From positions 1 to 64,000 of the forward strand of contig CANMKS010000002.1 in assembly GCA_947498645.1 (NCBI GenBank): 64,000 nucleotides of DNA, written 5' to 3'. Positions 55,467 to 61,552 of this stretch are shown piece after piece. Each line of letters begins with the position of its first letter. Position 1 is the first letter of the stretch. A program made the translations under genes and the position numbers. A model generated the notes under the pieces. It was not told the DNA's origin. It worked only from the letters and a program-made list of their open reading frames with translations, and did no database searches. Origin of the DNA: an uncultured Paracoccaceae bacterium (GTDB lineage: Bacteria; Pseudomonadota; Alphaproteobacteria; Rhodobacterales; Rhodobacteraceae).

Positions 55467-55640
55467 AAGGCAAATTCCGCTCTGCCGCCCCACCTCAGGC
55501 AAAGCCTTGCTCACATCACCTCACGGACTTGCGATGCACGGGTCTGTGAATGGCCGATGAACGGTCCGGGCGGTTAGGGTCTGGGCATCGCCGAGATAAG
55601 GTGACGATCCAAAACTGACCCAAACCAAGGAACCCTACTT

Positions 55641-55943
55641 ATGTCCAACGCTACAAAAACACTCGTTCTTGCTTCCGCCGTTGCCTCTGCTGTTGCAGGC
55701 CTGACAACTGCCGCTCACGCGCAGGAAAACGTCAAGTGCTACGGCGTATCCCTCGCTGGCGAAAACGACTGTGCTGCTGGCCCAGGCACAACATGCGCCG
55801 GTACATCCACAGTTGACTACCAGGGTAACGCCTGGACATTCGTGCCAGCCGGTACATGCGAAACAATGGAACTGCCAGCTTCTGACGATGGCACAGAGCG
55901 CATGGGCTCGCTCGAAGCGCTTGAGCGTGATATCCCTGCATAA
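55641..55943 (+). CDS. bufA1: DUF2282 secreted peptide, bufferin precursor (BufA1-type)
   Basis: 100 residues. A Sec signal peptide (core [16 protein letters not shown]) ends about AHA-QE (residue 27). The mature part has exactly four cysteines, C33 ([10 protein letters not shown]), C44 (ENDCAAG), C52 ([10 protein letters not shown]) and C73 (AGTCETM), with the DUF2282 pattern [13 protein letters not shown] and [17 protein letters not shown]2282 peptides preceding a DUF692 enzyme are now described as bufferins: ribosomally made peptides whose cysteines are oxidatively modified and which sequester copper in the periplasm. AAGGAA lies nine bases before the ATG. First gene of the operon. The unmodified acidic tail is typical. 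Confidence 0.9.
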
Positions 55944-55956
55944 GCGAACTATGGCG

Positions 55957-55980
55957 TAAGGTGGATCTTGATCCACCTTA
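55957..55980 (+). promoter_or_regulatory. Inverted repeat between precursor and MNIO gene
   Basis: TAAGGTGGATC is followed after only TT by its exact reverse complement, giving an 11-bp stem. There is no T tract after it (CATCACAC), so it is more likely an mRNA-stabilising or partially terminating stem that keeps precursor above enzyme than a full terminator (inference). Confidence 0.7.
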
Positions 55981-56007
55981 CATCACACTACTCAAGGGGC
56001 TATTCCA

Positions 56008-56862
56008 ATGCTTGACGCGACCCATCCTGCTTCCCTCCCCGCACGGCCCGGCGTTGGTTACAAGCCTCAGCATTATTCGGCTATCATGGCTGATCCCGGC
56101 CCTCTTGGGTGGCTCGAAATCCATGCCGAAAACTACATGGGTGACGGCGGCCGGCCGATTGCGCAGCTGCGCCACCTTGCCGAACGCTTCCCTATTTCCG
56201 TGCATGGTGTTGGCCTGTCCATTGGCGCCGAAGGCGATCTGGACAAGGATCACCTTGCCCGCCTCAAGCACCTTGTCTCATGGCTGAACCCCGCCAGCTT
56301 TTCCGAACATCTGGCCTGGTCGACCCACGACAGCCATTTCTTCAACGATCTTTTGCCCCTGCCCTACACGCCCAAAACGCTCGACCGTGTTGCCGCCCAC
56401 ATCAACGAGGTCCAAGATACTGTCGGACGGCGCATGTTGCTGGAAAACCCCTCCAGCTATCTGGCCTTCGCCGAATCCACCCTGTCCGAGACAGATTTCC
56501 TGCGTGAGTTGACCCAACGCACCGGCTGCGGCCTGCTGCTGGACGTCAACAACGTCTTTGTCAGCGCGACAAACCTCAAAACCTCGCCCCAGGCCTATAT
56601 CGAAAACTTCGCGCTGGACGCTGTTGGTGAAATTCACCTTGGCGGCCATGACGAGGATGAAGATGAAACCGGCGCGCCGCTGCTGATCGACAGCCACGGC
56701 AAGGCGGTGGTTGATCCGGTCTGGGCGCTGCTGGACTATACTCTTGCCAAATCCGGGCCCAAGCCGCTGCTGATCGAATGGGACACTGACGTCCCCGAAT
56801 GGCCCGTACTGGCCGAAGAGATCACCCGCGCTGACAAGGCGCTGTCGCTGGTGACGGCATGA
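56008..56862 (+). CDS. bufB: DUF692 multinuclear non-heme iron oxidase (MNIO), BufB-type
   Basis: 284 residues of a TIM-barrel fold. MNIO metal-ligand-type residues are in the expected places: H22 (KPQHYS), E41 (HAENYMG), H66 (SVHGVGLS), E100/H101 (FSEHLAWS), E146 (LLENPSSY), D179/N181 (LLLDVNNVFVS), H210/H214 (EIHLGGH), H230 (DSHGKAV) and E257 (LIEWDTD). MNIOs use a di/tri-iron centre and O2 to modify peptide cysteines; MbnB and TglH are characterised relatives. The substrate is surely the DUF2282 peptide just upstream. Stop overlaps the bufC ATG (ATGA). Confidence 0.93.
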   Translation: MLDATHPASLPARPGVGYKPQHYSAIMADPGPLGWLEIHAENYMGDGGRPIAQLRHLAERFPISVHGVGLSIGAEGDLDKDHLARLKHLVSWLNPASFSEHLAWSTHDSHFFNDLLPLPYTPKTLDRVAAHINEVQDTVGRRMLLENPSSYLAFAESTLSETDFLRELTQRTGCGLLLDVNNVFVSATNLKTSPQAYIENFALDAVGEIHLGGHDEDEDETGAPLLIDSHGKAVVDPVWALLDYTLAKSGPKPLLIEWDTDVPEWPVLAEEITRADKALSLVTA

Positions 56863-57596
56863 GTGTCACCCAAGCCCAGTTCCGCACCGCAATGCTGGAC
56901 CCGAATGCCGCCGTGCCGGACGGTATCGTCAACCCCGATGGGGCACAGGCAAGCAAGCGGTTCAACGTCTACCGCAACAATGTAGCCGTCAGCCTGTCCG
57001 ATGCGCTTGAGGCGGCTTTTCCTGTCGTGCGCAAATTGGTCGGTGACGAATTTTTCCGTGCAATGGCGGGGGTTTACCTGCGCAAGCATCCACCAAAGTC
57101 ACCGCTGATGATGTTCTATGGCGATGCGATGCCGCAGTTCCTGCGCCGGTTTGAACCTGCCAAATCCGTCCCCTACCTGCCCGATATCGCCGCGGCGGAA
57201 CTGGCCTTGCGCCACGCCTATCACGCAGCCGACGCAACGCCTGCACCACCAGATGCCCTTGGTGCTATCGCCCCCGACGCATTGATGGGCACACGGTTGC
57301 GCATCGCCCCTGCTGTGCAGACGGTGACCTCCAACTTTCCCATACACGCGATTTATCGCGCCAACACACAAAGTGATGCCCCCAAGCCCGTGATGCAGGC
57401 CGAGGCCGTACTGATTACCCGCTCGGGGTTTGATCCTGATATTCATCCCATCAATGCCGCCGCTGCCAAAGCGATCAGCCTTTTGCAAAATGGGCAAACG
57501 CTGGGCGAGGCCATCGCCACCGCTGATGACACCCTTGATCTGGGGTCTGTGCTGGGGTTGTTATTGGCCCAAGGCGCGATCACTGAAATTTACTGA
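56859..57596 (+). CDS. bufC: DUF2063 MNIO partner protein, BufC-type
   Basis: 245 residues. The DUF2063 N-terminal helical domain is clear (FNVYRNNVAVSLSDALEAAF; VVRKLVGDEFFRAMAGVYL; LPDIAAAELALRHAYHA), followed by a beta-rich C-terminal half. By family knowledge this protein binds the precursor and presents it to the DUF692 enzyme. Start is translationally coupled to bufB, as needed for a stoichiometric complex. The DoxX gene follows after 13 bp. Confidence 0.92.
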   Translation: MSVTQAQFRTAMLDPNAAVPDGIVNPDGAQASKRFNVYRNNVAVSLSDALEAAFPVVRKLVGDEFFRAMAGVYLRKHPPKSPLMMFYGDAMPQFLRRFEPAKSVPYLPDIAAAELALRHAYHAADATPAPPDALGAIAPDALMGTRLRIAPAVQTVTSNFPIHAIYRANTQSDAPKPVMQAEAVLITRSGFDPDIHPINAAAAKAISLLQNGQTLGEAIATADDTLDLGSVLGLLLAQGAITEIY

Positions 57597-57609
57597 AAGG
57601 CCCAACCCC

Positions 57610-58158
57610 ATGACCACTGCACCTTTCGCGCATCTGGCGCAGCCACTCAACCGTGCCGGTGACCAGATCCTGCCACTGCTTGCCCGCTTTGTCGTTGCTG
57701 CGGTGCTGCTGCTTTATTATTGGAATTCTGGCCTGACAAAGATCGGTGATGGCATTTTCGGTGTCTTCTCACCGTCTGTTGGCGGCTATGCCCAGATATT
57801 TCCCAAAGCGATGGAGGCCGTGGGCTTTGACATCAGCCAAATGAACATCTTTCACTGGGCTGTCGTTGTGGCAGGCACCATTGCTGAATTTGTGCTGCCT
57901 TTGCTGATTGTTATCGGGCTCCTGACCCGTCTGGCCGCATTTGGCATGATTGGGTTCATTTTCGTGCAATCGCTGACCGATCTTTATGGCCACGGCGGCA
58001 TCGAACACGCTGCCACCGTCGGCGCATGGTTCGACCGCATGTCCGATGCCGCCATTCTGGATCAGCGCGCCTTTTGGGTGCTTTGCCTGCTGATCCTGGT
58101 GTTCAAAGGGGCCGGCGCGATTTCAGTTGATCGCGGTCTTTTTAGAAATGCGCCTTAG
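57610..58158 (+). CDS. DoxX-family membrane protein of the bufferin operon
   Basis: 182 residues with four hydrophobic helices (LLARFVVAAVLLLYYW; AVVVAGTIAEFVLPLLIVIGLL; AAFGMIGFIFVQSLTDLY; AFWVLCLLILVFKGAGAI). DoxX proteins regularly end DUF2282-DUF692-DUF2063 operons; a membrane redox or delivery function is proposed but not proven. AAAGG precedes the ATG. The last 17 bp overlap the convergent small membrane-protein gene. Confidence 0.9.
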   Translation: MTTAPFAHLAQPLNRAGDQILPLLARFVVAAVLLLYYWNSGLTKIGDGIFGVFSPSVGGYAQIFPKAMEAVGFDISQMNIFHWAVVVAGTIAEFVLPLLIVIGLLTRLAAFGMIGFIFVQSLTDLYGHGGIEHAATVGAWFDRMSDAAILDQRAFWVLCLLILVFKGAGAISVDRGLFRNAP

Positions 58159-58510
58159 GCTCATCAGGTTTGCCCGCAGCCACGGCCAATAGGCCACCCA
58201 ACGCGGCAAAGCCAATGGGGAACATGGTGAAGACGTTAAAGCCGAACGCTGTGTAGAAACACAGTGCCGCAAGGATCATCAGAATACCGCCCCACAACGC
58301 GCGCGCCTTGGCCATTGCCCCACCGGCAATGGCCAGCAAAGGTGCAACAAAGCTCGCGAATTGGGTGAACACAGGGTTCTCGAAAAGGCCAAAGATTTCG
58401 CCCACCTCTGGCCGCCGCAAGGACAACTCGGAATAGCCAAAGCCAAACAGCCCGACAAAAATGCCCATTATGCCTGCGATCAGGCCAAGTATCATTGCGG
58501 CGTTGCGCAT
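58142..58510 (-). CDS. Small four-helix membrane protein (DUF4064-like)
   Basis: 122 residues from the ATG at 58510, which has AAGGAGA upstream. Four hydrophobic segments (MILGLIAGIMGIFVGLFGF; FASFVAPLLAIAGGAMA; LWGGILMILAALCFYTAF; MFPIGFAALGGLLAVAA). The pattern resembles DUF4064-type proteins, but I am not certain. Convergent with DoxX (17-bp overlap). Transcribed after the ArsC-like gene in the same direction, 44 bp apart. Confidence 0.78.
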   Translation of the reverse strand: MRNAAMILGLIAGIMGIFVGLFGFGYSELSLRRPEVGEIFGLFENPVFTQFASFVAPLLAIAGGAMAKARALWGGILMILAALCFYTAFGFNVFTMFPIGFAALGGLLAVAAGKPDEPKAHF

Positions 58511-58554
58511 GGTGGTCTCCTTACTGCTCTGACACCGACATAAGCACCCAAAGG

Positions 58555-58884
58555 CTATGCGCCAAGGTATTTGGCCTGCACATCCGCTTTCCAGCCGATG
58601 GTCCATTCTCCCTCAACCTCAATCGCGGGGCGTTTCAGCAGCGTTGGGTGGGTGGCCAGAAGGGTAGCAGGATCCGCCTCTTTTTCGGCATCAGACAGGC
58701 CGCGCCATGTGGTTGAGGCCCGGTTGACGGCCTTATCGCCAAAGGTGCTTATGATCGCCGCGATATCGGCGGCAGGGATGCCATCGGCACGTACATCAGT
58801 CACCTCGGGCGATTGTCCGGCATCTGCCAAAGATTTCAGCGCTTTCCGGCAGGTGTCGCAGCTTTTTAAGCCAATAAATCGCAT
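58555..58884 (-). CDS. ArsC/Spx-family reductase-like protein
   Basis: 109 residues from the ATG at 58884 (GGAGG upstream); the longer open frame has no support. Thioredoxin-like ArsC fold with C9-D-T-C12 near the N-terminus (GLKSCDTCRKAL) and KRPAIEV in the second half, which in the family holds the substrate-binding Arg. The CxxC form fits the YffB/Spx-like branch more than true arsenate reductase. No ars genes are nearby. Probably co-transcribed with the small membrane protein. Confidence 0.88.
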   Translation of the reverse strand: MRFIGLKSCDTCRKALKSLADAGQSPEVTDVRADGIPAADIAAIISTFGDKAVNRASTTWRGLSDAEKEADPATLLATHPTLLKRPAIEVEGEWTIGWKADVQAKYLGA

Positions 58885-59040
58885 GGTGCCTCCAGATTGT
58901 GCAAACTCTCGCCGGATCGCCAACTGCGACCATCTGTCATTTGATTTTTGCATAAAACACCCAACCTTAGGAATATCAAGTGAAGGAAGGTCCGCTGTCG
59001 CGGGACCCAAGACCTCACGACACGAAAGGGAGTGCGGACA

Positions 59041-59250
59041 ATGCCAAGTGGCACCGTCAAGTGGTTCAACACAACAAAAGGTTACGGTTTTATTGCCCCC
59101 GACGAGGGCGGCGCGGATATTTTCGTGCATATCTCTGCGGTGGAACAATCCGGGCTGACCGGCCTCGCCGACGACGAAAAGGTTACATTTGACCTGATCG
59201 AAGGGCGCGATGGCCGCAAAATGGCCGGCAACATCGCAAAAGCAGGGTAA
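59041..59250 (+). CDS. Cold-shock domain protein
   Basis: 69 residues, a single OB-fold cold-shock domain with RNP1 KGYGFIAPD and RNP2 DIFVHISA. AGGGAG lies eight bases before the ATG at 59041; three upstream codons are open but not likely used. Binds single-stranded nucleic acid as an RNA chaperone. Transcribed divergently from the ArsC-like gene over a 156-bp leader region. Confidence 0.95.
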   Translation: MPSGTVKWFNTTKGYGFIAPDEGGADIFVHISAVEQSGLTGLADDEKVTFDLIEGRDGRKMAGNIAKAG

Positions 59251-60771: not shown

Positions 60772-60888
60772 GGGGTATCCTCTGACGGCGTGTTTTTAGC
60801 AGGTTAGCTTGGCGCGTGGCGGGCGTCGCCTGAAATAGCAGCGTGAGCCGTCTTGCACCCTTCATTAACCTTTAAACTGCATCCTGGG

Positions 60889-61428
60889 ATGATGTCGCAT
60901 TACCGCCGTCCACACCAGCCCGGTGCCACCGTATTCTTTACCGTCAATCTTGCCGACCTCTCGTCGGGATTGCTGGTGCGGCAGATTGATATCCTGCGTG
61001 ACGCGGTGCGGCAGACGCGGGTGGCGCGACCCTTTGTGATTGATGAGTGGGTGGTGTTGCCCAACCACATGCATTGTGTCTGGACGTTGCCGAAAGGGGA
61101 TGCGGATTTTTCCAATCGCATGGGCGAAATCAAGGGACGGTTTTCAAGGATGGTGCGTAGGTCGGGGCCTGCCCCGACTCCGACGGTGAACAACAGATAC
61201 GGGGTTGTCGGGGGGCGGAAAAGAGTCGGGGCAGGCCCCGACCTACGTGATGAAGTTTCCATTTGGCAGAAACGTTTTTGGGAGCATCACATCCGCGATG
61301 ACGCCGATTACGTGGCGCATGTGAATTATTGTTGGATTAATCCAATAAAGCACGGGTTGGTGAAAGATGTCCGCGATTGGCCGTATTCGTCGTGGCATCG
61401 GGATTGTGGTGACGTTGGGCGGGGGTGA
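60889..61428 (+). CDS. REP-associated tyrosine transposase (RAYT, Y1/IS200-like)
   Basis: 179 residues with the Y1 transposase marks: catalytic HxH in PNHMHCVWTLP, and the WQKRFWEHHIRDDADYVAHVNYCWINPIKHGLV block holding the nucleophilic Tyr and the family's WPYSSWHR ending. Two adjacent ATGs (60889, 60892) could start; both lack a strong ribosome site. RAYTs mobilise or process REP palindromes. Here two inverted copies of a REP-like sequence lie inside the reading frame (61156-61180, 61223-61247), and a third follows the gene. The encoded insert (MVRRSGPAPTP to VGAGPDLRDEV) makes the central part about 15-20 residues longer than in usual RAYTs. Confidence 0.88.
   Translation: MMSHYRRPHQPGATVFFTVNLADLSSGLLVRQIDILRDAVRQTRVARPFVIDEWVVLPNHMHCVWTLPKGDADFSNRMGEIKGRFSRMVRRSGPAPTPTVNNRYGVVGGRKRVGAGPDLRDEVSIWQKRFWEHHIRDDADYVAHVNYCWINPIKHGLVKDVRDWPYSSWHRDCGDVGRG
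61156..61180 (+). repeat. REP-like palindrome, copy 1 (inside RAYT gene)
   Basis: 25-nt unit with core GTCGGGGCCTGCCCCGAC (self-complementary except at the centre) preceded by CGTAG. The exact inverse complement recurs at 61223-61247. Confidence 0.88.
61223..61247 (-). repeat. REP-like palindrome, copy 2 (inside RAYT gene, inverted)
   Basis: Exact reverse complement of copy 1 over all 25 nt, 42 bp away, still in the RAYT frame (encodes RVGAGPDLR). The two together could form a long cruciform/BIME-like hairpin. Confidence 0.88.
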
Positions 61429-61439
61429 GCGCCGTCTTG

Positions 61440-61462
61440 GAAACGGTCCGGGGGACCGTTTC
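61440..61462 (+). terminator. Hairpin after RAYT gene
   Basis: Perfect 10-bp stem GAAACGGTCC / GGACCGTTTC with a GGG loop, 12 bp after the RAYT stop and without a T tract. A second weaker stem CCGGATT / AATCCGG follows at 61482-61503. Possibly the end of the RAYT unit. Confidence 0.65.
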
Positions 61463-61530
61463 AGGCGCGAACGGGCGGAGCCCCGGATTTGCCCGCCAAT
61501 CCGGTGGGTGATGTGAGGTGTTGGGGGGTG

Positions 61531-61552
61531 TCGGGGCAGGCCCCGACCTACG
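61531..61552 (-). repeat. REP-like palindrome, copy 3 (downstream of RAYT)
   Basis: TCGGGGCAGGCCCCGAC plus CTACG, same orientation as copy 2 and identical over 22 nt. It ends six bp before the stop of the minus-strand protease-like gene. Confidence 0.88.

Follow-up and report, generated by a model that had tools for sequence, protein, structure and literature searches.

What does a compact run of four genes encode in an uncultured marine Paracoccaceae bacterium, headed by a gene for a small peptide with four cysteines, and how might these genes be switched on? The genes lie on a 64,000-nucleotide stretch of DNA (contig CANMKS010000002.1, positions 1 to 64,000, forward strand), which is called the window below and which an initial annotation, made from the sequence alone, had described as carrying a complete bufferin-type operon. 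The four genes, with the support for each, are as follows.

55641..55943, + strand: bufA, Buf1/DUF2282 bufferin precursor, 100 residues (Pfam profile; C33, C44, C52 and C73)
56008..56862, + strand: bufB, MNIO-family bufferin maturase, 284 residues (Pfam and NCBIfam profiles)
56859..57596, + strand: bufC, MNIO partner protein, DUF2063 plus a predicted RRE-like domain, 245 residues (Pfam, structure model)
57610..58158, + strand: bufD, DoxX-family membrane protein, 182 residues (Pfam; tblastn in relatives)

Profile searches, which the initial annotation had proposed for DUF2282, DUF692 and DUF2063, matched these families, and the products of all four genes score above their Pfam cut-offs, confirming the genes at these positions: BufA matches DUF2282 (E-value 1.1e-24, 86.6 bits, cut-off 22.4), BufB matches MbnB_TglH_ChrH (9e-102, 340 bits, over the cut-off), BufC matches DUF2063 (PF09836; 1.2e-26, 93 bits, over the cut-off) and BufD matches DoxX (PF07681; 4.9e-7, 30.7 bits against a cut-off of 23.6). 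The start of bufD was taken as the ATG at 57610, the mechanical list of open reading frames beginning at a TTG at 57430, and the ATGA through which the DUF2063 partner gene was said to overlap the MNIO gene is present at 56859-56862. In NCBIfam, BufB passes the BufB equivalog NF050167 (368 bits, cut-off 310) and falls below the cut-offs of the other MNIO models, namely HvfB (227 against 360), ApyH, MbnB and ChrH; likewise, BufC stays under the cut-off of HvfC (52 bits, cut-off 142) and BufD under that of HvfX (27.4 bits, cut-off 80).

Among solved MNIO proteins, sequence matches to BufB were found in 3bww (5e-47), 8hci_D (1e-13), which is the DUF692 chain of TglHI, and MbnB 7dz9 (1e-11). The MNIO ligand residues noted earlier hold up well, with H66, H101, E146, D179, N182, H210, D228, H230 and E257 invariant in 29/29 chosen sequences, a set that includes the same genome's second MNIO (27% identical), and each aligning with an identical residue in the TglHI DUF692 chain. 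We take these His, Glu, Asp and Asn residues to be the iron-binding set. PDB sequence searches with BufC and with a BufC profile gave no match; its structure model (predicted local distance difference test, pLDDT, 90.6) suggests that BufC folds like known MNIO partner proteins, with DUF2063 fused to an RRE-like domain. The model matches chain A of TglHI 8hi7, taken as TglI (E-value 2e-6, template modelling (TM) score about 0.6), and 3dee/NGO1945 (2e-4, TM 0.5-0.6), in both cases over most of its length and with a root-mean-square deviation above 6, while its match to MbnC (7dz9_C, from MbnABC) is weak (0.98, TM 0.4-0.5).

Judged by their sequences, the four genes are a complete Buf1-type bufferin operon corresponding to the published core set, and the bufferin-type reading is upheld by the BufB equivalog, by the partner-like fold of the BufC model and by this set of genes. 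The system is already published and common, and is no new type: bufferin 1 of Caulobacter vibrioides/crescentus (CC3254-CC3257) has the same four families in the same order (DUF2282, DUF692 MNIO, DUF2063, DoxX), and BufA has four cysteines like the founding Buf1 member as described in the available part of PMC12452194. Captophorins (HvfA, FonA; EGKCG repeats) differ: there, according to the available parts of PMC12452194 and PMC12668002, an MNIO and a type-1 partner install 5-thiooxazole in a Lys-Cys repeat precursor, whereas the window's precursor is a DUF2282 protein and its maturase passes the BufB model, not HvfB.

The cysteines C33, C44, C52 and C73 of BufA are invariant in 44/44 BufA sequences chosen for alignment, and their 11-8-21 spacing recurs in 111 of 112 copies, as caught by a pattern allowing ranges. 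The BufA N-terminus is hydrophobic with an AHA|Q-like end, Sec-type by eye, and AlphaFold2 predicts a helix at residues 5-24 with low confidence. For Buf1, the parts of PMC12452194 and PMC12668002 that were available report that the two central cysteines become thiooxazoles and the outer two form a disulfide, the product binding periplasmic copper; the authors' summary adds that Caulobacter Buf1 chelates copper and improves growth in excess copper. By analogy, 5-thiooxazoles are expected at C44 and C52 of BufA and a disulfide between C33 and C73, with copper as the expected metal. All four cysteines pointed out in the initial annotation are present, but the mass shift it proposed to look for at each of them is predicted by precedent only at C44 and C52; modification at all four was rejected, since the precedent, in the part of PMC12452194 available, gives the central two only.

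From this precedent, in the cytoplasm BufC would present BufB with the precursor, whose C44 and C52 BufB would oxidise to 5-thiooxazoles; the peptide would then be exported by Sec, form the C33-C73 disulfide and chelate excess periplasmic copper; DoxX may have a redox role, which is unproven. Two observations on BufA weigh against this account, namely that its sole NCBIfam match is BufA2, under the cut-off, and that its structure model is poor (pLDDT 59.6); a PDB sequence search with BufA gave no match. Nevertheless, we hold with considerable confidence to the account as a whole, comprising a Buf1 operon, maturation and copper chelation as in the precedent, and an activator-dependent promoter. 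Separately, 99 of the 112 BufA copies end in a short LERDLPA-like tail with an RDxP-like motif, which may be a recognition element, and 13 lack the tail motif, including those of five sigF/nrsF-linked loci (L003-L006, L017).

Comparisons with relatives drew on 81 loci, namely the window and its 80 top-ranking named relatives, with flanks of up to 6 kb per side; these loci are mutually related, and their counts are not independent events. By tblastn, bufB is present in 80, bufC in 80, bufD in 71 and thrS in 64 of the 81, and the recurrence of bufB, bufC and bufD shows that the gene order is not a matter of chance. Two sequences (L068, L058) stop short of the missing genes, and in the remaining loci without a DoxX match bufD is absent or too divergent for tblastn. 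The window's bufA sits downstream of thrS, a placement that is a feature of the window as compared with the Caulobacter bufferin 1 operon. Among named relatives, the nearest found is Loktanella sp. Alg231-35, whose BufA is 98% identical. Of 198 family genomes sampled, 140 have a DUF2282 match, and the window's own genome has one DUF2282 match and two MNIO matches.

The second MNIO gene of that genome (G000, C1:1689426-1691297; L002 862-2733) is very different, encoding 477 residues with a C-terminal extension, and is preceded by a gene for a 144-residue protein with CPACCSG and CATGC motifs. This pair fits the rare 'adjamnio-IV' described in the available part of PMC12452194 (119-146 residues, 5-6 cysteines, CxxCC, 10 sequences). 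An adjamnio-IV-like protein was seen in 2 of 149 family genomes, both times adjoining such an MNIO, and beside the other genome's copy of the pair lies a CGCCVAW-type protein (L197 2098-2664, - strand), DUF411-copper-protein-like by eye. One relative (L029, family genome G007) has a tandem pair of bufA genes with four cysteines each. Downstream of the window's bufD (58142-59250), two genes on the - strand encode a DUF4064-like membrane protein (below cut-off) and an ArsC-family protein, and a + strand gene encodes a cold-shock protein; comparable neighbours are visible by eye in several of eleven relatives.

The gap between bufA and bufB contains a further conserved element.

55956..55981, + strand: intercistronic stem-loop, a perfect 12-bp inverted repeat with a 2-nt loop in the bufA-bufB gap

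Within the 65 nt after bufA, a stem of at least 8 pairs (small bulges allowed) is found in 78/81 loci, as well as in 30/30 further unnamed family loci; in a control, random 65-nt segments of the 80 named loci reached 8 pairs in 338/960 cases. In six loci (L010, L011, L017, L027, L029, L030), truncation of the intergenic stretch at the earliest possible start codon had made it look short or unstructured; over a fixed 65 nt these loci give stems of at least 10 pairs. Stem stability over the 81 loci has a median z of -2.91 against dinucleotide shuffles, with z <= -2 in 58, and among 16 selected close relatives, three of the 10 consensus pairs vary on both sides. Rfam gave no match in the window at gathering score. 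We infer that the stem-loop is a processing or stabilising element, which would protect or partly isolate the bufA message and so raise the substrate over the enzyme. An alternative is an intrinsic terminator with read-through, which the GC-rich stem directly past the bufA stop codon would suit; at least five T within 8 bases past the stem are present, however, in only 5/81 and 2/30 loci. On these counts we rejected the idea that most relatives have an ordinary intrinsic terminator behind bufA, and the read-through version is doubtful, though it deserves to be kept in mind. A processing or stabilising stem-loop of such conservation suggests a means of making the substrate peptide exceed its modifying enzyme.

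Upstream of bufA, three promoter features stand out.

55522..55534, + strand: imperfect upstream palindrome copy CACGGACTTGCGA (sequence)
55537..55549, + strand: palindrome CACGGGTCTGTGA, proposed activator site (sequence), the sole exact CACGNNNNYGTGA match on both window strands
55574..55580, + strand: TTAGGGT with a predicted sigma-70-like -10 (TAGGGT), 24 nt past the palindrome

Promoters were compared in 110 loci, classed as 77 thrS-linked, 11 with sigF/nrsF beside bufA and 22 others, against a background of 1991 random segments; L048, whose BufA was missed by the pattern, was left out here and included in the gene-order and stem-loop counts. Exact CACGNNNNYGTGA occurs in 50/77 thrS-linked, 3/11 sigF/nrsF-linked and 8/22 other loci and in 0/1991 random segments, rising with up to one mismatch to 75/77, 10/11 and 17/22 (random, 63/1991), and the palindrome accompanies bufA in many genera; inspection by eye shows a further copy upstream in many relatives. 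What commonly comes after the palindrome at thrS-linked loci is NTGG or NTAG, then 20 nt and a TA opening a -10-like hexamer, the spacer to the -10 region being 20 nt in 26 of 28 sites and 19 nt in two, and no consistent -35 hexamer is seen by eye. The strict composite is present in 30/77 thrS-linked, 0/11 sigF-linked and 5/22 other loci, and in 0/1991 random segments. A consensus promoter scan returned one site, on the opposite strand.

A second promoter type accompanies the same palindrome. SigF-type promoters precede bufA in 1/77 thrS-linked, 7/11 sigF/nrsF-linked and 8/22 other loci (random, 11/1991), and palindrome and SigF promoter occur together in 15 loci, the palindrome ending 5 nt before GTAAC in 11 of them and 6 nt before it in two; no other spacing between 0 and 14 nt was found. 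The palindrome thus precedes the -10 region by 24 nt in one class and, going by the pattern, CGAA by 25-28 nt in the other. NrsF, the partner of SigF and a neighbour of some bufferin operons, is matched in 29/198 family genomes. A SigF-type promoter at the window's bufA was rejected, as the 220 bp before the gene contain no GTAAY-N15-18-CGAA and the genome has no NrsF match, a SigF gene without NrsF not having been sought. The window's operon therefore differs from the SigF-NrsF-controlled Caulobacter bufferin in having the palindrome and a sigma-70-like -10. The palindromic element, the missing NrsF match and the bufA-bufB stem-loop are additions to the initial annotation.

In the arrangement we favour, transcription would start about 55 nt before bufA from a sigma-70-like -10 with little -35, at a promoter that would depend on an activator occupying the palindrome immediately upstream. 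Being symmetrical and near the promoter, the palindrome might instead be the operator of a metal-sensing repressor that leaves on stress. It lies, however, upstream of the expected -35 in the first class and 5 or 6 nt before GTAAC in loci with a SigF-type promoter, positions that fit direct contact with RNA polymerase better than repression, and we consider a repressor unlikely. Elsewhere in the window, at 60853-61552, a Y1-transposase-like gene (Pfam below cut-off) is associated with copies of the palindrome GTCGGGGCAGGCCCCGAC, two inside its reading frame and one after it, and resembles a REP-associated transposase.

The same promoter element recurs at a second place in the window's genome, where GTGANTGG-N18-22-YTAGG occurs three times (reversed control, once): at bufA, in the gap separating msrP from a fasciclin gene, and some 84 nt upstream of an aroC-like gene (identified by eye). 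In 40 genomes of the genus, the full composite matched 36 times, in 26 genomes, and its reversed control 5 times. Of the 36 matches, 30 were fetched: 18 are at bufA, 10 in the msrP/fasciclin gap and two in rpsD-like coding DNA (identified by eye). The last two were taken as chance, as was a copy of the palindrome within a gene resembling a carbonic anhydrase gene (C1:2601199, identified by eye). The palindrome scores 8 or 9 of 9 in 16 of 19 fasciclin loci of the genus. Divergent from the fasciclin gene, msrP, a MerF-like gene, a GDCCVxC gene and msrQ appear to form one cluster (G000, the window's genome, C1:702263-704175; L156 6264-8176), in which MsrP (434 bits, cut-off 207), MsrQ (134 against 130) and the GDCCVxC protein pass their cut-offs and the 69-residue MerF-like protein does not (33.5 of 50 bits). 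The bufferin operon thus appears to share a putative regulator with periplasmic protein-repair genes; the same activator would drive the fasciclin gene, and may also drive the divergent cluster of msrP, MerF-like, GDCCVxC and msrQ genes. The signal is probably copper or oxidative envelope damage, and a common activator would place copper buffering and the repair of oxidised methionines in the periplasm under one inducing signal.

The same enzymes could also serve a peptide that mainly handles another metal or stress, such as gold, cadmium, chromium or reactive sulfur. In Caulobacter, SigF mediates a response of the operons to chromium and cadmium (PMC3511200, available part), the gold-induced (gig) operons of Cupriavidus metallidurans and Legionella pneumophila are called bufferin clusters (available parts of PMC12452194 and PMC12668002), that of Legionella responding to gold and copper (PMC5413113, available part), and the msrP cluster includes the GDCCVxC and sub-threshold MerF-like proteins. 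The gig operons are likened to the window's by literature description, not by sequence. Against this stand the copper chelation and the growth benefit in excess copper reported for Caulobacter Buf1, whose cysteine core is conserved in the window's BufA, and we regard a main role in handling another metal or stress as improbable.

The Caulobacter SigF regulon, as given in the available part of PMC3511200, consists of two bufferin operons and YedY (MsrP), with the promoter GTAACC-N16-CGAA; YedY induction is only partly SigF-dependent there, so that its authors suspected a further regulator. It likewise joins bufferin and MsrP, which in the window's genus appear to be joined by a palindromic element, with fasciclin added. 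In Caulobacter both functions are under SigF, so it seems that the promoter type of the regulon changed and its membership did not. We therefore propose, at barely better than an even chance, that an undescribed transcription activator binding CACGNNNNYGTGA defines a two-locus envelope-protection regulon of Rhodobacteraceae (bufferin; fasciclin and msrP-(MerF-like)-GDCCVxC-msrQ), in which the core promoter was swapped between extracytoplasmic function (ECF; SigF) and sigma-70 types at near-equal distance, members and site being kept. In the open literature searched, no paper mentions msrP together with DUF2282, or fasciclin, methionine sulfoxide reductase, Rhodobacter and promoter together, and the available part of PMC12452194 does not mention promoter, hairpin, thrS, Rhodobacter, palindrome or msrP.

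Several results weigh against the regulon. The aroC-like site, the third in the window's own genome, stands at a promoter-like distance; the palindrome scores only 6 or 7 in three fasciclin loci (L140-L142), two of which (L141, L142) gave no msrP, and our script found no fasciclin gene in four more distant loci (L145-L148). The element in the msrP/fasciclin gap is oriented towards fasciclin, so that action on msrP is assumed. The composite is degenerate or genus-biased, since its strict form is present in only 30/77 thrS-linked loci and 26/40 genus genomes, and no candidate regulator was seen beside the inspected loci except the sigF/nrsF genes of L053. The combination of palindrome and SigF promoter, searched with two mismatches in 198 genomes, matched 15 times and its reversed control 35 times; it is thus not supported genome-wide, which slightly lowers the odds of the proposed regulon with its promoter swap. 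That the palindrome is common to both promoters by chance or recent copying of promoter DNA, as might be argued from a strict element sought genome-wide in one genus only and found chiefly there, is very improbable given that their flanks differ by eye, that the palindrome is at bufA across many genera and that 28/30 fetched whole-genome matches lie at bufA or msrP/fasciclin.

Bufferins are a very widespread and recently described bacterial copper defence, whose control has been described, in the available parts of the literature consulted, for Caulobacter (SigF) and for gig operons. The proposed two-locus regulon would be a testable addition to this picture and is the part most worth following up: the shared element would tie copper buffering in marine Rhodobacteraceae to the repair of oxidised proteins in the periplasm, and its short DNA site may provide a handle for finding the regulator.

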